From contig VFZE01000005.1 of assembly GCA_016871315.1 (NCBI GenBank), forward strand, positions 62,001 to 126,000: DNA of 64,000 nt. Reading direction: 5' to 3'. The notes below the pieces were generated by a model that had not been told where the DNA came from, searched no databases, and was given only the letters and a program-made list of their open reading frames with translations. Positions 18,992-27,871 of the stretch are shown piece after piece. Position 1 is the stretch's first letter, and each line of letters starts with the position of its first letter. A program made the translations under genes and the position numbers. Source of the stretch: Acidimicrobiia bacterium. GTDB lineage: Bacteria; Acidobacteriota; Terriglobia; Bryobacterales; Bryobacteraceae.

Positions 18992-21688
18992 TTAGCCCAA
19001 TGGAACGGGCGCGCGGACCCATTTTTGGAGAGTGGCTTGCAGAACCTCCCGGCGGACGGGCTTGGTGATGTAGTCATCCATGCCCGCTTCCAGGCAGCGT
19101 TCCCGGTCGCCTTCCAGAGCATTGGCGGTGAGGGCGATGATGGGGATGCGCCGCGGGCCTTTCTCGCGGCGGCGGATTTCCCGGGAGGCGTCGAAGCCGT
19201 CCATTTCCGGCATAAAGCCATCCATGAGAACAGCGTCGTAGCTTTGCTGGAATACGGCTTCCACGGCTTTGACTCCATCGGGAACGACGTCTACGCGGTA
19301 GCCGAGCACTTCAAGCATCTTCTTGGCCACGCGTTGGTTGACAACATTGTCTTCGGCAAGGAGAATGCAGCCCAACTCACGCCCCGGTTCAGGCAGGGAG
19401 GTTTTTGAAACGGGCTGCGCAAGATCGGCAGGCGGACAGGCAAGATGCATGAGGACGCGCATGAGCTGACCTCGGCGAAGTGGTCTTCGCAGCGTAGCGC
19501 CGATGCCGCAGGCGGCGAGGCGCTCACGGTCCGGGCGCTGGGTGTAGTCAATGAGAAGAACGACCGGAAGGGAACGGAATCGGGAATCGGCGCGAAGCCT
19601 GACTGCCAAGTCGAGGCCGGAACGGACGTTGAGATTCTGCGCGAGCAGGATGCCATCAAGCGGGGCTCCCTTCCGGACGCATTCCTCCAGTGTGGTGAAT
19701 AGCTCGGCGCCAGAAGCGGAAACGGGCTGAAGGCCGAGCGACTCCAGGGTAGAATTCAACTGAAACCGCTCGAGCGGGTCATCCTCGACGGTGAGAACGC
19801 GGAGCTTATGGAAGTCCAGCGTGCAGTGGCCATCGTCCCGCTGGCCGCTGGGTACGGTGAAGGAGATGGAGAAATAGAAGCGTGAGCCCTTGCCTGATTC
19901 ACTCTCCAATCCGATGCCGCCGCCCATGAGTTCGACAAGCCGCCTGGAGATAGTGAGGCCAAGACCGGTTCCGCCAAACCGGCGTGTGGTGGAGGCATCG
20001 GCCTGCGTAAAAGGTTCAAAGAGCCTCGATTGGGCTTCCTCGGAGATCCCAACGCCGGTGTCCTCAACTTCAAAGAGAAGCTCTCTTAGGTTGCCGTCGA
20101 GAGCGGTGAGACTGACGGAGATGGAAACGCTGCCGGAGGAGGTGAACTTGATGGCGTTGCCGGCCAGATTGAGCATGACCTGGCGAAGCCGCGAGGGGTC
20201 GCCGACAAGCCAGACGGGAAGGTTGGGGTCGATGATGCATCGGAGTACCAACCCCTTGGATTGGGCTCTCTCGGCGACCATTTCCACTGTCTCCTCGACA
20301 AGCTGGCGGACGTCGAACTCGATCTGTTCCAGGCTGAGCTTGCCGGCATCGATCTTAGACAGATCAAGGATGTCGTTGATCACAGCCAGCAAGGCATCGC
20401 CGCAGGCGCGGATGGTGTGGACGTAGTCATTCTGCTCGGTGGTGAGTTCGGTGGACTGGAGCAGATCGGTCATGCCGATGACACCATTGAGCGGGGTACG
20501 GATCTCATGGCTCATATTGGCGAGGAACTCGCTCTTGGCTTTGGCGGCGCCTTCGGCGAGCGCTTTGGCGGCTTCCACCTCGCCCAGGGCATGGCTGAGG
20601 AGGCTGGAAGTGGATGCCTGTTCCTGAATCAATTGTGAAAGATCATTGGCGTAATGTTGGATGCGCTCCTCAGACTCTTTGCGGCCGGTAATGTCGGTCA
20701 GGGCGCCAATGATCCGGCGCGGCTGACCTTGCGAATTCAGCTGCACTTCACCCCGGCTGCTCAGCCAGCGCACTTGCTCCTCGTCCAGATCCACGCGGTA
20801 TTCGGAGGAGTATGAGCCGCTGTGCCGGATGGCCTCCTCGACTTCTCCGAGGACGCGGCTCCTATCCTCGGGGTGAATGCAGGTGAGCCAATCCTGCGGC
20901 GCAACTGAACCCTTGCCGCCCGGAAGACCGATCATGTCGTTAAATTCGCCGGTACAGGTGATAGTGCCCTTGGCGAGGTCCCAGTCCCAGACGGCGATCC
21001 CCGCTGCACGTTGTGCCATCAAAAGCCGTTCGCGGCTGCCTCGCAGTTGGGTCTGGGTTCTTTCCAGTTCGGCGGCGTGTGTGGCATGTAGGTAACGGTC
21101 GGCGAGCGCATTCCAGAACCAAGTGTTGCCGCGGCGCACCTGTAGGATCAGCACGGTGAGCAAGATCACCGTGACCACAGCCATGGGGAGGCCTTTCTCC
21201 GCGCCCCGGCCGAGATGGGAAACAAGGGAAGGAGAGAGGATCAGGATGGGAAACCAGGTGCCAAGGCGACGATCCGGACTCAAAGAAACGGCGCCCACGG
21301 AACTGGCTGCCGCCGCACCCACCATCGCAATTAGAGTAGGTCCTTCATAGTCGTTCAGATAGACCAGGCCGGCGAGAAAGATCCCCCACACAAGGGCGAC
21401 TCCCAGCAGGCCCAATGCAAAAACCCGGCGCCAGCGCTTCGGATTGACGGCGTACCGCAATTCCCAGTTGTGGACGAACCATCTCTGAAGAGCGAAAAAG
21501 AACAGTACGGAGGCCGTTGCAGCCACATAGAACCACGCCAGCCTGTCCCAGTCGCCTCCAAACACGCACACGACGACTATCATCAAGGGATGGAGCCAGA
21601 TCGTTGCCCTACTGAGAAGTCCCAGTTGGCGGTCTGCCTGATAGATCAGCGACTCCAAGGAACCGACTTTGGGACTCGTTTCCTGCAC
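18992..21688 (-). CDS. Hybrid sensor histidine kinase/response regulator
   Basis: Protein of 898 residues. About six membrane segments (~30-185) precede a PAS domain (~222-340, with [15 protein letters not shown]). The dimerisation domain has phospho-acceptor His394 in [11 protein letters not shown], followed by an HATPase ([12 protein letters not shown], ~573-583). Receiver 1 (~628-750) is degenerate: Ala683 in ILLAQNL stands where the phospho-Asp should be, and RRP (~734-736) replaces the usual KP. Receiver 2 (~773-890) is intact, with Asp823 in [11 protein letters not shown] and Lys876. So signal passes to receiver 2 only. It lies directly upstream of the PhyH gene. Confidence 0.92.
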
Positions 21689-21789
21689 GGCTTCTCAATA
21701 GCTTTTCGGCTATAGAGGAAGAGTTGAAGAAAAGAAACGACAAGAGGGAGGTTAGGGATAAGGGAATGACTTCAGGGGGTAATAAAGAA

Positions 21790-22389
21790 ATGGTTCCAAG
21801 TGACCCAAATCCCAGCTCGCTCTCCAGCCTGCATGCCCGGCTTGAGCATGGCATCCACTTTCGCGGGGTGGTCATCGTCCGGCTCCCCTCCGCCGCCTTT
21901 CGGCTGCGAAGGCTCAACGCCTCGCAATTCACCTGCTCACGAAACCGGTAGAAGCCGGCATCTCGAAACGGCCTTTCGCTCGCCTACAGCGGGTATACCC
22001 TCTCAGGCACCCCCACGGCAGGGTCAAAGTTCCCGGCCTGTTTCTTCGTTGCCACATCGATTCCCTTGCCGACCCGTTCGATCCCGGATTCCCCTCCTCC
22101 GCAGGTTTTCCCCGCTGGGGAGGATCACTACCCGGTCACCGTTGCCAACTCGGAAACCGACGCCCCAGACCGCTCGCCGGACTCTCGCTCCCCGTCGGGG
22201 CTTTTCCTCCCCTTCGGATCAAAGCGCTCGATCCGGTTTGCTGCCTGGAAGCCTACCCAAACGGTTCGCCCGATCTCCCTTCGCTCCCCGGCCGCGGAGT
22301 GATTTATTAAAACCGTCCGCAACCGGATCACCGTTCCAGGTCCGCTACGTCCCGTCAGGCTCGCTGTTCCTTGAACCTCTTGGAACCAT
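21790..22389 (-). ncRNA. Candidate large structured non-coding RNA (~600 nt)
   Basis: No credible protein gene covers this stretch. Its ends are a perfect 10-bp inverted repeat, ATGGTTCCAA at 21790-21799 and TTGGAACCAT at 22380-22389, extendable by two G-U pairs in minus sense. Inside, 22288-22298 and 22316-22326 form an 11-bp helix that closes only in minus sense, because two positions are G-U there and A-C on the plus strand. A minus-sense hairpin at 21887-21912 (about 10 bp, one mismatch) is capped by GAAA. More stems lie at 22215-22235 and 21832-21850. Promoter-like elements sit just upstream. I see no tmRNA, RNase P, 6S or SRP signatures and no clear group II intron domain V; a mobile element with terminal repeats remains possible. 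Confidence 0.6.
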
Positions 22390-22423
22390 CCTTATGATGT
22401 ACCATCGGGACTATTCCCGTCAA
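22390..22423 (-). promoter_or_regulatory. Possible sigma-70 promoter for the structured RNA
   Basis: Read on the minus strand, TTGACG (22423-22418) is followed after 16 bases by TACATC (22401-22396), placing +1 near 22390, the 5' end of the terminal helix. The -35 is good and the -10 is weak. The spacer holds an inverted repeat, CGGGA/TCCCG (22406-22410 and 22415-22419), that could be an operator. Confidence 0.4.
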
Positions 22424-22509
22424 CAAAAATCGACATCGAGGAAGGGATTATCCTCAGCTTCTTTCTATTTTCGAATCAGTGGGATGCATCGATGTAGCTG
22501 TGGTAGCTC

Positions 22510-22540
22510 TGTGGATAAAACACGACGCATTGTTCGTGTT
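22510..22540 (-). terminator. Probable rho-independent terminator of the YCF48-like gene
   Basis: On the minus strand AACACGA (22540-22534) pairs with TCGTGTT (22525-22519) across an 8-base loop and is followed by TTATCC, giving a short T-run. It lies about 25 bp after the stop of the YCF48-like gene. The stem is only 7 bp. The T-rich tail overlaps TTATCCACA (22518-22510), a perfect DnaA-box consensus, here isolated and probably fortuitous. Confidence 0.45.
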
Positions 22541-22562
22541 GTAACAAGACGTAAAGCTTTTG

Positions 22563-23654
22563 TTATCTCCCAGCCCACTTCAGAATCATTCCCGTGTCGG
22601 TGGCCGCCCATACTTCGCCTTCAGCCCGGGCCAGTACCACCCTACGGGCTACGGCGCGATAGTCCACCTTCATCTCCTGCCAGTCGCCCTCACGACCCTG
22701 GAGAATATGCACTCGCCCGGGAACGGGAAGCTGTCGCACGGTGGTTGCCGGCTCCACGGCGCCGAGAATCAATTTGCCGTCAGGTTGCAGCAGCATGTCG
22801 GTGACCGCGCGGTTCTTCGCCTTGAAAATCGATTTCGATTGCGTGGAGTTGGCTTGGACCTCGTAAATCTCCGACGGGTAATCGAACTCATAGTGGAATT
22901 CGACGAGCGCATAGCCCGCGCCTGAAGGCGCCATTCGCAGACGGCTGATGCGGCCAAAGATGGAAGAGGAGGCCGGCTGCCAGGTTGCGCCGCCGTCGTT
23001 TGTGGACAAGGCCAGGGTCAGGGACGGCCACTGCCGCAGACGTTGAGCGCGCTCCGGATCCAGCCAGGCAGGGTGGCGAAGCGGATTCCTGGTGGTTTCG
23101 TGGAACCCGACAATGGCGCCGTTGGCGGGAGTGGAGAAATCGATCCAGTTGTACATGCTGCGGTTAGCTTCGGCTTCCGGCAACTGCGCCGCCGGGACGT
23201 CGCGCCAGTTCCTACCGCCGTCGCCGGTCTCCCACACCTTTTTAGGGCCGCCCACGGCGAAGCCACGTTTGGCATCGAGGAAATGCACGCGCGCGACTCC
23301 CTTCATCTTCACCAGTTTCTGAAACGACGCGCCGCCGTCGCCAGTGAACCAGACACCCTCATCGGTGACCATCCAGCCATGGGCCACGTCGAGGAAGAAC
23401 AACGACAGGCCGTCCTCCTTCAAAGGAGTCAGTTTCCAGGTGGCCCCGGCGTCGGAGGTGATGACGGCAACCGGCTTCCGGTTTCCCTTTTCCGAAAGCG
23501 CGGCCAGCGCGACTCCACGTTTCTCATTCGCGAAACGGAGTTCGTGAATCGCCAGGCTGCTGCGATCCTCGTCGTGGAAGAAGACCGTGCGCCATTCCCC
23601 GAAGACGGGCAGAGCCAAGCATAGCGCGGCAAGGGAGAGGTAATGTCTCAGCAC
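22563..23654 (-). CDS. Secreted YCF48/BNR-repeat beta-propeller protein
   Basis: Predicted 363 residues from GTG 23654, with a signal peptide (LRHYLSLAALCLALPVFG). At least four BNR/YCF48-like repeats are seen, each with an Asp-box form such as SDAGATWKL, GDGGASFQK, GDGGRNWRD and NDGGATWQP. These resemble photosystem II stability factor/sialidase-type propellers, common in heterotrophs as exported proteins of unknown role. GTG 23654 lies 4 bp after the stop of the GAF gene; the ATGs upstream would place the start inside that gene. Ribosome site weak. Confidence 0.75.
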   Translation of the reverse strand: MLRHYLSLAALCLALPVFGEWRTVFFHDEDRSSLAIHELRFANEKRGVALAALSEKGNRKPVAVITSDAGATWKLTPLKEDGLSLFFLDVAHGWMVTDEGVWFTGDGGASFQKLVKMKGVARVHFLDAKRGFAVGGPKKVWETGDGGRNWRDVPAAQLPEAEANRSMYNWIDFSTPANGAIVGFHETTRNPLRHPAWLDPERAQRLRQWPSLTLALSTNDGGATWQPASSSIFGRISRLRMAPSGAGYALVEFHYEFDYPSEIYEVQANSTQSKSIFKAKNRAVTDMLLQPDGKLILGAVEPATTVRQLPVPGRVHILQGREGDWQEMKVDYRAVARRVVLARAEGEVWAATDTGMILKWAGR

Positions 23655-23658
23655 AAAG

Positions 23659-24255
23659 TCAAGATTCGCGGGCCAGCGTGCCGCCGGCAAGCACGAGATC
23701 GGCGAAGTTGATGCGCGACAGATCGGCATCATCCAGGGCGGATTGGGCCACCAGGCAGCCGATCTGCTCGCCGACGGTGGTGACCATCTCGATCTCGTCC
23801 CCCGTGTGGGAATGCGGCTCCCTGTGTTGGAGATTAATCACGCCGGCGACGCGGCCGCGGGCGATGATGGGCGCGGAAAGAAAAGCCTCGTAGGTGTCCT
23901 CGGGAAGATCGCGGAAGTACTTGAAGCGCGAATCGTGATAGGCCTCGCGGGAGATCGCCAGAACGCGCCGTTCGCGCGCCACCCAGCCGGTGAGCCCTTC
24001 GGCCAGGCGCAGTTTCACTTCGCCCACCGCGCCAGGGTTGGAGCCTTTTGCGGCGCACAAAACGAGCTCCTCTCCGGAAACCAAATACAGCAGGCAGGAG
24101 TCGGAATGCATGAACTCGGCTACCAGCCCGACGATGGAGGAAAGCGCCTCGGCAAGAGGAACAGGGCGCGTCAGGAAGCGGCTGATCTTCTGGTAGAGGC
24201 GCAACTGCTTCTCCACCCGGTCCAGTCTCTGTTCCAGGTCTCTCGACTTTGCCAC
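23659..24255 (-). CDS. GAF domain protein
   Basis: Predicted 198 residues from GTG 24255. A short coiled-coil leader (RDLEQRLDRVEKQLRLYQKI) is followed by one GAF domain: VAEFMHSDSCLLYLVSGEELVL, the GLTGWVARERR helix and SAPIIARGRVAGVINLQHRE. No catalytic domain is attached, so it is probably a small-molecule or redox sensor partner. The frame is open back to GTG 24540, but that extension looks like a VWA domain end rather than a GAF leader, so I start at 24255. It is followed at once by the YCF48-like gene. Confidence 0.78.
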   Translation of the reverse strand: MAKSRDLEQRLDRVEKQLRLYQKISRFLTRPVPLAEALSSIVGLVAEFMHSDSCLLYLVSGEELVLCAAKGSNPGAVGEVKLRLAEGLTGWVARERRVLAISREAYHDSRFKYFRDLPEDTYEAFLSAPIIARGRVAGVINLQHREPHSHTGDEIEMVTTVGEQIGCLVAQSALDDADLSRINFADLVLAGGTLARES

Positions 24256-24540: not shown

Positions 24541-24688
24541 TCCAATCTAGACTACGCCGGGCCTGAGCCGCCCTCCCCAGCCTCCGGCCATTTCGACATC
24601 ACTCTACTTGAACCGGTCCGCTGACTTTGATATGCCGCGTAACTCCTCCACGATCGCCGCCGGTGCCCGTGATAACCTAGCTTCTAGC

Positions 24689-27600
24689 ATGGTTTGTCGG
24701 CAACTGGGCAGGGTGCTGGGATTGCTTTCCTTCGCCCTTCGCCTTACGGGACAGTCTGATCCCGACTATGTGATCCGTGGCTGGGGGACAGAGCACGGGC
24801 TGCCGGGGAATTCCGCCACCGCCATGGCGCAGACTCCGGATGGCTATCTTTGGTTTGGCACCTTTAGCGGGCTTGTCCGCTTCGACGGATCCACCGTCAG
24901 AGTCTTAAACCCTTCCAATACGCCCCAACTGCCGCACGCGGGGATCGTTTCCCTTCATTACAGCCCGGACTCGGGCCTGTGGGTCGGCACACTCGGCGGA
25001 CTCGCCCTCCTCTCGTCTAAGGGATGGGAACGTCCTCAGGTTCCGCTGAACTTCAGTGAGTTCATCACGATGATCATCCCCTCCCCCAATGGAGAGCTGT
25101 ACTTCCAAACCAATCAGCAACGATGCCTGAACTACCGGGATGCCCGCTTCTCCTGGTTACCTTCACCGAAGGTTTCCGACGTTCAAGGCTGGAGTCCCTT
25201 GTTTGACCGGCACGGGCATCTGCATGCGGGCTCGACACGCAGGCTGTGGACATGGAGTGGCGCGGACTGGGTGGAAGTACCGTTGCCCTCTGAAGTGATT
25301 TCCTCCGAAGGCGACACGGGCGCGGTCAGGTGGATTCAGGCGTTGGATGGCGGCCTTTTCTATCTGGCGCGCGGCGCTCTTTTCAAACTGGACGACGGCA
25401 AGCTGCTTCATACATGGCAGCTTCCCAATTCAGTCATCGGCACTCGGATCCTGTTGCAGGAGCCCGATGGAACTGTGTGGGCCTCCATGCCCGATGGCCT
25501 CCTGCGGCTCCGGCTCGGAGGCGGAGTCCGCCTGTTCAACCGGAAGACTGGGTTCCCCGCCAAAAGCATCCGGTTTGTGTTCCGCGACCGAGAGGGGATG
25601 CTCTGGGTCGGCACCAACGGTGACGGCCTCTTGCGGTTGGGTGACCGGCGGTTTGTGTCTTATGGCTTGGAACATGGCATGCCCGATTCGCCGGTAAAGT
25701 CGGTGACCCAAGCCCGGGACGGAAGCCTCTGGCTGGCCGCTTATGGCAATGGTGTGGTGCGGATTCATCAAGGGCGGATAGAACGGCTGGGCCCGCGTTT
25801 CATTGCCCAATCCCTCCTGGCTGACCGGAAAGGAACCGTTTGGGCCGGTACTTACGGCGACGGTATCTTCCAGTACCAAGAGGGTCGGATTTCGAGCTTG
25901 CCAACTCCGGCTGGCGTAACCGTCGAAGCCTTGTTTGAGGACTCCAAGGGAGCTATTTGGATTGGCGGCAATAGGGCCATCGCCGTCCATGAGAACGGAA
26001 GTTTCCGTACGGTGGAGATGGTCCTGCGCAAAGGCCCCGTATTCATTGCTTGCTTTGCGGAGGAGCCGGCTTCAGGAAGAATGTGGGCCGGAGGCGACGG
26101 CGGTCTCTACTCGTTAGAGAACGGGCGTTTTGTTCCTTTTACGATCGCCGGTGCTCCCTTGCCTGCTCTGCGTTCGATCCTCGCCTTCGATGATTCATTA
26201 TGGCTGGGCGCCTCCTCGCGCGGACTCATCCGTGTGAAGAACGGCATGGCTGTCAATATTCCAGGTCCGGTTGAGATGGAGCCAAGTGCGGGTTCCATCC
26301 ATCATGTCAAGGATTCTCTGTGGCTCGGCACTACGCGCGGAGTCTGGCGCGCCAGCCTGGCTGATCTCAACAAGTCCGCTGATGCCGGCGGCGCCGAAGT
26401 CGATTGGGAGGTCTTCGACACCAGCGACGGCATGCCGAGCGCCGAGACCTCCGTCGGGCATCAGCCCATGGCATACCTGGACCACTCCGGAATACTCTGG
26501 TTTGCCACGCTCAAGGGCCTCACCGGGATTGATACCGGAAAGGAAAATGTCCGCCCCGGCGGCTCCCCCGTGCTATTCGAGCAGGTCCTGTTTCGCAACA
26601 GCGCCGGCCAGGTGAGGTCTCTCGAGGTTTCCCCCAACGGTGGCGTCCGGCTGCCGCCCGGCAGTCACGACATCCGCGTCCAATTCGCCGTAATGAACAC
26701 GGCCGCCCCGAGAAAGGTCAAGCTCGATTATGAGGTTAGCACCGACGGCGATGTGGTTGCCTCCGGGAGGATCAGTGGGCGTGAGATTCGCCTCTACCGG
26801 TTGGACGCCGGATCCAACATTCTCCGGCTGCGCGCCAGCAACGGCAGCGGCGTGTGGGGCCCGGGTTCGGCAGAGCTCTCCATCTTCCGGGAACCCGCTT
26901 TTCTGGAGCGGACCGGAAGCAAGGCCGTGCTCGTTTTGCTGAGCTTTTCCTTGTCGGCATTGTTTTTCTGGTGGCTCCACAGCTTGAGAATCCGCTACCA
27001 TGCCCGCCAACTGGCGAGCATGCGCGAGGCCGAGGAAGTGCTGCGGCTGGCCAAGAACAAAGCCGAGGAGGCATCGCGGATGAAAAGCGAGTTTCTGGCA
27101 AACATGAGTCATGAGATCCGCACTCCCATGAACGGAATTCTCGGTACGGCCCAGTTACTCGCTTTCACGAAGCTCGACGAGGAACAGCGGACCTACCTCG
27201 GCGATATCAAAGATACCGGCGGCGCCCTTCTCCGGCTGCTCAACGATATCCTCGATCTGTCCAAGATTGAGGCGGGCCGCTTGGAGCTTCGTCCTTCCCC
27301 TTTCCGGATTGCCGAACTCGCCTCGGAGGTGATTCGACTGGTCCAGACCGCCGCCAAAGCCAGGAATCTCACCATATCCTGCACCGTATCCGATGAGGTT
27401 CCGGATCTTCTTTATGGCGACACGCTGCGTATCAGGCAGATCCTGCTCAACTATCTGGACAATGCCGTGAAGTTCACCGCCTCCGGCTTTGTCGAACTTT
27501 CCATTTCCACTCTTTCCCGCACGTCCGATGAGGCTGAAATCAAGATCTCGGTGCGCGATACGGGGCCCGGCATCCCGCCCGAAAAGATTCATGCCATCTT

Positions 27601-27871
27601 CGAAGCCTTCACTCAGGTGGACTCGAGCTCGACGCGCTCCTCGGGCGGAGCCGGGCTTGGACTGTCGATCGTCAAGCGCTTGGCGGCACTGATGAGCGGC
27701 TCGGTCGGCGCCGAATCGGAACTCGGCTGCGGCTCCATCTTCTGGGCGACGATGCGGCTGCCGCTCCAACCGGGCGCTCCGCCCCAAGTGGAACCCCATG
27801 CAGCCGGTAGTGATCTTGCCGCAAAGCCCCCATCCAAACCGGATTCCCTGTTGGCCGGACCTACTCTGTAA
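24689..27871 (+). CDS. Two-component propeller sensor histidine kinase
   Basis: About 1060 residues from ATG 24689 with a signal peptide ([19 protein letters not shown]). Some 12-14 Reg_prop repeats follow (forms such as [32 protein letters not shown]), then a Y_Y_Y-like domain and one membrane helix near 744-766. The kinase core has His808 in [11 protein letters not shown] and HATPase motifs ([16 protein letters not shown]). Unlike Bacteroides HTCS proteins it has no receiver or AraC domain; the protein ends in a Pro/Ala tail. Likely senses extracellular carbohydrate or a similar ligand. ATG 24608 is an in-frame alternative. Confidence 0.88.

Follow-up and report, generated by a model that had tools for sequence, protein, structure and literature searches.

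A large structured RNA with several kink-turns and a predicted dimerisation loop in the Bryobacterales

Few known bacterial RNAs are as large and intricate as the one described here. What OLE, ROOL and GOLLD do is still open, and ROOL and GOLLD are often phage-linked. One functional kink-turn is reported for OLE in PMC9723947. A 2025 cryo-EM study (PMC12286853) describes at least five inter-subunit contacts per chain in OLE, ROOL and GOLLD. The literature considered here is that of open-licence PMC papers, and a reservation about novelty concerns two uncertain candidates from 2010 that Table 1 of PMC2864571 lists without Rfam numbers: Solibacter-1, for Solibacter usitatus, and Soil-1, for soil DNA only. 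Either could be a fragment of the RNA described here. A term search of two genome-wide discovery papers (PMC11109978, PMC8632094) returned no Acidobacteria-related terms.

We analysed a window of 64,000 nucleotides from contig VFZE01000005.1 (GCA_016871315.1), and all positions below are counted within it. An initial annotation, made from the letters alone, had proposed a candidate novel ~600-nt structured RNA, enclosed by a perfect 10-bp terminal inverted repeat. The repeat is indeed perfect, but it is 11 bp long rather than 10 (21790-21800 / 22379-22389). The proposed ends were well judged, and homologues, strong covariation and the lack of any Rfam match bear out the main proposal. The predicted RNA gene occupies minus-strand positions 22389-21780 (~605 nt) and appears to be an independent gene encoding a large structured RNA. 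That its family is a conserved structured RNA is, in our view, virtually certain. Homology, fold, strand and the conservation of promoter and T-tract are established by sequence comparison.

Across the whole window, Rfam 15 at gathering thresholds returned only a tRNA, and at E≤5 the RNA locus drew two meaningless lncRNA-model hits on the plus strand. Eighteen homologous loci likewise matched no Rfam family at gathering thresholds. RNase P, tmRNA and 6S RNA had not been recognised at the outset, and no model of these matched the locus; the genome has its own RNase P RNA elsewhere (275.4 bits), and its only over-cut-off tmRNA match among the matches listed also lies elsewhere (155.6 bits). Group I and group II introns were rejected because no covariance model matched at the gathering threshold, at E≤5 or in the 18 loci. 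The OLE, ROOL and GOLLD models gave no match at the gathering threshold or at E≤5. Comparison with these RNAs, which the initial annotation had drawn, was apt. Our RNA shares with OLE a size of ~600 nt, and it carries the sequence signature of a symmetric kissing loop that switches between palindromes, such as PMC12286853 describes for the OLE dimer. By contrast, it has four or five kink-turns against the one reported for OLE in PMC9723947, is found in one Acidobacteria order whereas OLE occurs in Bacillota, and lacks a detectable L7Ae-family (YbxF/OapC-type) protein in 237 genomes of its family. Because no model matched, the phylum differs and no L7Ae-family protein was found, we do not consider it a member of OLE. 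Like ROOL and GOLLD it is large, branched and covarying, and with GOLLD it shares a putative symmetric kissing loop supported by the same covariation logic (PMC12286853); it differs from both in having no Rfam match and no copy in the viral, phage and plasmid sets as searched. We therefore regard it as a new RNA class of the kind called large ornate bacterial RNA, subject to the reservation on Solibacter-1 and Soil-1 given above.

The minus strand had been proposed as the RNA sense, and both folding energy and consensus folding favoured it. The minus strand folded at -285.5 kcal/mol (z = -4.62), with none of 20 dinucleotide shuffles as good, whereas the plus strand had z = -1.11 and was equalled by 3 of 20 shuffles. 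RNAalifold on the homologues gave -337.4 in the RNA sense vs. -245.4 for the reverse complement. Two details noticed earlier also held: the helix 22316-22326 / 22288-22298 has 11 pairs in the minus sense, two of them U-G (A-C on the plus strand), and the hairpin at 21887-21912 carries a C(GAAA)G loop in that sense. This hairpin is a conserved 10-pair helix: every pair shows double changes in three or more copies, and three pairs covary significantly.

The description of the stretch as gene-free holds as far as indel lengths and substitution spacing can tell. Open reading frames of 107 aa (minus) and 334 aa (plus) overlap the RNA gene and exist mechanically. Across 68 copy pairs of 80-97% identity, 3 of 161 indels had lengths divisible by three (146 left a remainder of one and 12 a remainder of two), and successive substitutions showed no enrichment at spacings that are multiples of three (0.234). 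A coding gene was rejected, as the copies lack coding-type evolution by both measures. The plus-strand frame (21800-22804) runs across the RNA gene and into the adjoining one. Long open runs are frequent on the antisense strand of the family (median 156 aa vs. 97 aa in sense), which is probably a composition effect.

Many homologues were found in Bryobacterales genomes, where the initial annotation had pointed. A covariance model of the 5′ domain matched 146 of 257 genomes of the order (membership judged by record titles) under strict filters, 144 of them in the window's own family and 2 in a second family; the other 111 had no match at the settings used. An even draw across the phylum gave 2 matches in 396 genomes, both in the window's own family, and BLAST matched the stretch in 143 of 237 genomes of that family. 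An exact-pattern scan of named genome contigs returned 72 stretches, and every title named Acidobacteria or one of its subgroups (Bryobacterales, Bryobacteraceae, Solibacter, Terriglobia and the like). The same pattern had no match in viral contigs, and blastn found none in phages and plasmids. Given the strict filters, the genome presence counts are probably lower bounds, and absence counts may be too high since diverged copies such as L226 may be missed. L226 (genome G005, genus g3) scored weakly with the 5′-domain model (E 5.5e-9) and reached 209.8 bits over positions 7-550 with a full-length HMM. The window's genome has a single match to the stretch, and 35 of the 146 genomes have two or three, counts that may take in split or duplicated contigs.

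Homologues were gathered by BLAST, by a pattern holding the 5′ strand of the terminal helix P1, and by the 5′-domain model. Of the 232 HMM hits, 42 were excluded because they were partial or lay at a contig edge, and removal of duplicates and of copies with N left 133 unique full-length homologues (601-711 nt including short flanks), of which 113 remained after a 90% identity cut. Given these search routes, the invariance of GGTTCCAAGAGG is partly a product of how copies were selected. The P1 3′ strand was absent from pattern and model alike, and its conservation is also partly selected, as the full-length filter needs an HMM match reaching into it.

Covariation, which had been suggested as a check on the fold, was strong. 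In the 113 non-redundant copies, 28 base pairs covaried at an alignment-wide E≤0.05, and all 28 fall within the 188-pair consensus structure; when the test was limited to the given pairs, 75 of the 188 were significant. These values come from an in-house script that follows the R-scape approach (G-test, APC, 50 tree-based null alignments), run on a sequence-based MAFFT alignment. In an earlier set of 68 copies, all nine significant pairs were inside the structure. A separate count applied the structure from the larger set to a 58-row alignment and found 85.7% of cells paired, 1775 double changes where shuffles gave 627 (none of 500 reached the observed number), and a covariation score of 0.479 vs. 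0.09-0.13 for slid structures. Helices 18 and 23 were poorly supported in this count, at 44% and 43% paired. A search beyond the nested structure for pseudoknots and tertiary pairs gave nothing at E≤0.05 in the 113-copy alignment.

In the resulting fold (Table 1), P1 is followed by a 5′ domain; a long-range helix then closes three central arms, after which come a fourth arm and a 3′ hairpin. P1 has 16-17 pairs, including G-U pairs and a one-base interruption, with the 11-bp inverted repeat as its core; standard pairs average 0.93 across the 113 copies, and it contains no covariation-significant pairs because it is largely invariant. The 5′ domain includes the U-G helix described above. Double changes in at least three copies were seen at 18 of 19 pairs in the K2 arm (three significant), and double changes occurred at 21 pairs of the K3 arm (four significant), 14 of 15 in the K4 arm (four significant) and all five of the long-range helix (one significant). 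In the K5 arm, the outer helix had three significant pairs and the inner helices zero, one and three.

Table 1. Positions of the predicted RNA, its structural parts and its flanking signals in the window.
Feature	Position	Strand	Details
Likely transcribed stretch, first P1 pair to end of T-tract	21780..22389	-	from homologues, promoter and T-tract; ends inferred
-35 element TTGACG	22418..22423	-	TTGAC kept in homologues
-10 element CATCAT	22394..22399	-	family consensus CATNNT
P1 terminal helix, 5′ strand	22371..22388	-	pairs with 21791-21808
5′ domain	22255..22360	-	helices 22338-22360/22255-22279 and 22318-22333/22282-22296; 4 and 3 pairs significant, E≤0.05
K1, kink-turn-like	22282..22333	-	internal loop 22325-22333 / 22282-22289; GA/GA in 112/113
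Long-range helix closing three central arms	21952..22254	-	22250-22254 / 21952-21956
Arm carrying K2	22164..22249	-	22224-22249 / 22164-22188; 19 pairs
K2, canonical kink-turn	22186..22226	-	22216-22226 / 22186-22193; GC-UUU-GA-UCC / GGG-GA-GC
Arm carrying K3	22055..22162	-	22155-22162/22055-22062 and 22130-22149/22068-22089; 8 + 17 pairs
K3, canonical kink-turn	22086..22133	-	22122-22133 / 22086-22094
Arm carrying K4	21957..22053	-	22035-22053 / 21957-21973; 15 pairs
K4, canonical kink-turn	21978..22030	-	22021-22030 / 21978-21984
Arm carrying K5	21855..21948	-	outer helix 21942-21948 / 21855-21861 and inner helices
K5, canonical kink-turn	21882..21920	-	21911-21920 / 21882-21888; closes GAAA hairpin
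3′ hairpin, palindromic apical loop	21819..21847	-	hexamer GCAUGC at 21831-21836
P1 terminal helix, 3′ strand	21791..21808	-	pairs with 22371-22388
T-tract, terminator-like	21780..21790	-	directly 3′ of P1 3′ strand

Conserved signals flank the element on both sides. Of 110 copies anchored on GGTTCC, 107 carry TTGAC upstream (94 at -35, 11 at -36 and 2 at -37) and 3 do not. The -10 profile in the same 110 copies, out of the 113, reads C 0.92, A 0.98, T 0.84, N, N, T 0.97. This predicted promoter is sigma-70-like, and its spacing implies that the start should fall at the first P1 pairs. The promoter region is also G-rich at -16 (0.80), -15 (0.73) and -13 (0.81), and positions -42 and -41 are nearly A/T-only. 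This combination of a strong TTGAC with CATNNT and these flanking preferences may be that of the order's housekeeping promoter. At the other end, T makes up 0.55-0.96 of positions 2-11 past GGAACC and then falls to near background (106 of the 113 copies). A strong local hairpin at the T-tract occurred in only 17 of the 109 copies folded, so P1, joining ends ~570 nt apart, is likely the terminator stem. We infer transcription from the conserved promoter and terminator, and the exact ends of the predicted transcript from the same signals.

A near-consensus -35 promoter could also suit a protein-binding regulatory RNA, such as an RNA-polymerase regulator replacing 6S RNA, and the genome that carries the window gave no match to the Rfam 6S model. 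However, that model is of limited reach, matching in only 5 of 14 control genomes, and our RNA is about three times the usual size of 6S. 6S RNA is one long hairpin with an open-complex-like bulge, whereas the fold here is branched and has multiple kinks, and we regard such a regulatory role as improbable. With the Rfam models, RNase P RNA and tmRNA were both found in this genome although 6S RNA was not.

Recurrent genes surround many of the 150 copies whose neighbours were compared. A YCF48-like gene lies upstream on the same strand in 45 (as the nearest ORF in 42), an aminotransferase IV gene neighbours 40, a zinc-ribbon protein 22 (its Pfam match is below the cut-off) and a HipA-like kinase 19, while a glycosyltransferase 9 gene lies upstream on the opposite strand in 17. 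None of these five offered a functional partner. The window's own YCF48-like gene (22566-23732) is a member of the recurrent YCF48 cluster. Directly downstream in the RNA sense lies a PAS-HisKA-HATPase-receiver sensor histidine kinase (18995-21688, minus), and a propeller (Reg_prop) sensor histidine kinase lies beyond the YCF48-like gene (24608-27868, plus). Neighbour clusters C3 and C8 went unused because their representatives look like wrong-frame translations of the simple ORF caller; C3 is mixed and also holds the window's downstream histidine kinase.

Five genomes (G001, G003, G129, G225 and G226) were chosen because they hold copies at both a YCF48/aminotransferase IV locus (locus A) and a glycosyltransferase 9 locus (locus B). 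In all five, the two copies cluster within the genome (support 0.96-1.0), with identities of 0.82-0.93 within a genome vs. 0.67-0.83 across genomes at the same locus. In eight pairs with enough flank, identity between the two copies was mostly 0.8-1.0 inside the element, fell to 0.18-0.50 over the 50 nt immediately downstream, and was 0.48-0.94 in the promoter-proximal 50 nt upstream. The alike tract is thus limited roughly to the transcription unit in locus A and B copies. By this sequence pattern, the locus A and B copies in some genomes evolve in concert in the manner of rRNA genes, with recurrent insertion at the same sites a less likely explanation of the alike copies. Across 20 two-copy genomes, the copies were 0.82-0.98 identical in nine and 0.63-0.73 in 11, and in 9 of the 20 another genome held a copy closer to the first copy. 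Therefore, within-genome likeness is not general, which weakens the argument that copies must match.

The perfect terminal inverted repeat and the genomes with more than one match could instead point to a non-autonomous mobile element, an origin that had been named as a way the RNA reading might fail. However, the repeat forms the stem of an RNA with covarying arms, 117 of the 150 copies have one or more of the ten most frequent neighbour clusters beside them, and identity between copies drops at the element edges in the eight pairs above. No target duplication was visible by eye in the flanks, the window's genome has one match, and a Pfam scan of ten proteins, five from window ORFs and five representing recurrent neighbours, detected no transposase. 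With recurrent neighbours, its own promoter and a T-tract, the locus gives no sign of a transposon; we rejected the mobile element on the shared neighbour genes and the restriction of identity to the element, and consider it highly improbable.

The arms of the RNA are marked by a shared internal motif. Five arms have a bulged strand C-NNN-GA opposite a strand GA-G, and the sequence signature across the 113 copies identifies four canonical kink-turns (K2-K5) and one variant (K1). K2-K5 follow the kink-turn rules, with tandem GA/GA, a three-nucleotide loop that in most cases follows a C-G pair, and a non-canonical helix. K1 is termed kink-turn-like because its loop has only two nucleotides instead of a three-nucleotide bulge. 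GA/GA was present in 107 of 113 copies at K2, which has a three-nucleotide loop and a C-G pair at -1 in 102 of 113. The corresponding GA/GA counts were 101 at K3, 102 at K4 and 100 at K5, with a standard -1 pair in 108/111, 113/113 and 110/113, respectively. At K4, the -2 pair is weak (80/113), the 3b.3n position is most often C.C, and RNAalifold pairs part of the loop differently. The GGGGAGC strand at K2 and K5 resembles that of Kt-7. The motif is like a Kt-7 type kink-turn in its bulged C-NNN-GA and opposite GA-G strands; it differs in occurring four or five times in one non-ribosomal RNA. We found no L7Ae-family protein (PF01248) in any of 237 genomes of the family, with detection in 7 of 14 control genomes. 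A model built on OLE and YbxF was dropped because this expected kink-turn partner was absent (0/237).

Size, intricate fold and strong conservation (102 of 618 alignment columns are at least 95% identical) are also what a large ribozyme would show, with the dimer loop and kink-turns only building an active site. Conserved unpaired patches do lie outside the kink-turns, for example at GGA 22335-22337, GAA 22045-22047, GGA 22031-22033 and AAA 21974-21976. However, of 18 conserved unpaired runs listed, 8 are kink-turn GA elements and 10 are not, no Rfam family matched, ribozymes and introns included, and no cleavage or splice context was seen, as the element runs from promoter to T-tract. We therefore judge a ribozyme unlikely.

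The putative contact between molecules lies in the 3′ hairpin. Its apical loop carries the hexamer GCAUGC in 83 copies, and in the six-nucleotide register 98 of 107 loops are perfect palindromes, or 103 when G-U pairs are counted; 4 of 107 are not self-complementary. The other self-complementary hexamers are GCUAGC (9 copies), GUAUGC (3), GCAUGU, GCGCGC and UCAUGA (2 each), and GUAUAC and ACAUGU (1 each), making eight in register, six exact and two with G-U. Six of the 113 rows have another loop length and were left out; by eye, five of them hold a palindrome (three hexamers and two CTAG tetramers) and one has none. Among loops differing from GCAUGC, 20 of 24 were self-complementary, vs. a mean of 7.1 and a maximum of 14 in 2000 loop-half shuffles. 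The palindrome score of 0.91 was the best of the 6-column windows scanned, the next being 0.58. Parsimony requires at least six changes between exact inner palindromes, counted in register; a looser count of 18 was contaminated by stem sequence (CCGG), and the in-register value was used instead.

The two middle positions are AU in 94 copies, UA in 10, GC in 2 and AC in 1, and as neighbouring bases of a single chain are unable to pair with each other, the pattern points to base pairing across two molecules. The cryo-EM study (PMC12286853) makes the same palindrome argument for OLE L9.3 and GOLLD L21a. Alone, the middle palindrome pair had E = 4.4 in the alignment-wide test, above the E≤0.05 threshold, and as the outermost bases of the hexamer could pair in-chain around a CAUG tetraloop, only the inner four bases are strong evidence. 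A palindrome could also be the site of a protein dimer, but here it sits in an RNA hairpin loop. A loop that stays palindromic while changing sequence is the signature of an intermolecular kissing loop, and we predict with good confidence that the RNA dimerises through it.

An alternative to a simple dimer is a closed shell, as in a cage or packaging RNA of the ROOL or GOLLD type. The length is similar to that of ROOL, several arms carry kink-turn signatures, and the putative symmetric kissing loop resembles GOLLD L21a (PMC12286853). Yet only a single intermolecular contact is visible in the sequences, and neither the exact pattern in viral contigs nor blastn against phages and plasmids gave a match. 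A cage thus seems quite unlikely.

We favour, with moderate confidence, a trans-acting structural RNA that forms a homodimeric scaffold. A dedicated sigma-70-like promoter would drive minus-strand transcription of the RNA, and the transcript would end at the T-tract directly behind the P1 3′ strand. P1 would tie both ends together and hold the multi-arm core, whose arms would be bent by the four or five kink-turns. Close to the 3′ end, the palindromic apical loops of two molecules would kiss symmetrically and so form a homodimer or, with further contacts, a larger particle. Without a detectable L7Ae-family protein, the kink-turns would presumably be fixed by ions and tertiary contacts, or by another protein. 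The particle would most likely serve as a scaffold or RNP core, a role also proposed for OLE, with the RNA constitutively made, self-contained and presenting its kinked arms. We infer termination by P1, dimerisation and the scaffold role, and for the scaffold or RNP-core role we see about an even chance. In size, dimer loop and kink-turn, the RNA would work most like OLE (PMC9723947).

This analysis extends the initial annotation by the kink-turns and palindromic loop of the RNA, by its flanking promoter and T-tract, and by its taxonomic range and the concerted evolution of some copies. Taken together, these could tentatively describe a new class of RNA particle: a homo-oligomeric, L7Ae-free RNA with multiple kink-turns and a palindromic kissing loop, self-terminating by zipping of its ends and subject to gene conversion in some lineages, as rRNA is. 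This would be a family in which kink-turns apparently work without their usual binding protein. A further class combining a palindromic loop with kink-turns would suggest more than one origin of homo-oligomeric RNA particles, and the RNA family offers a compact system for asking what such particles do.
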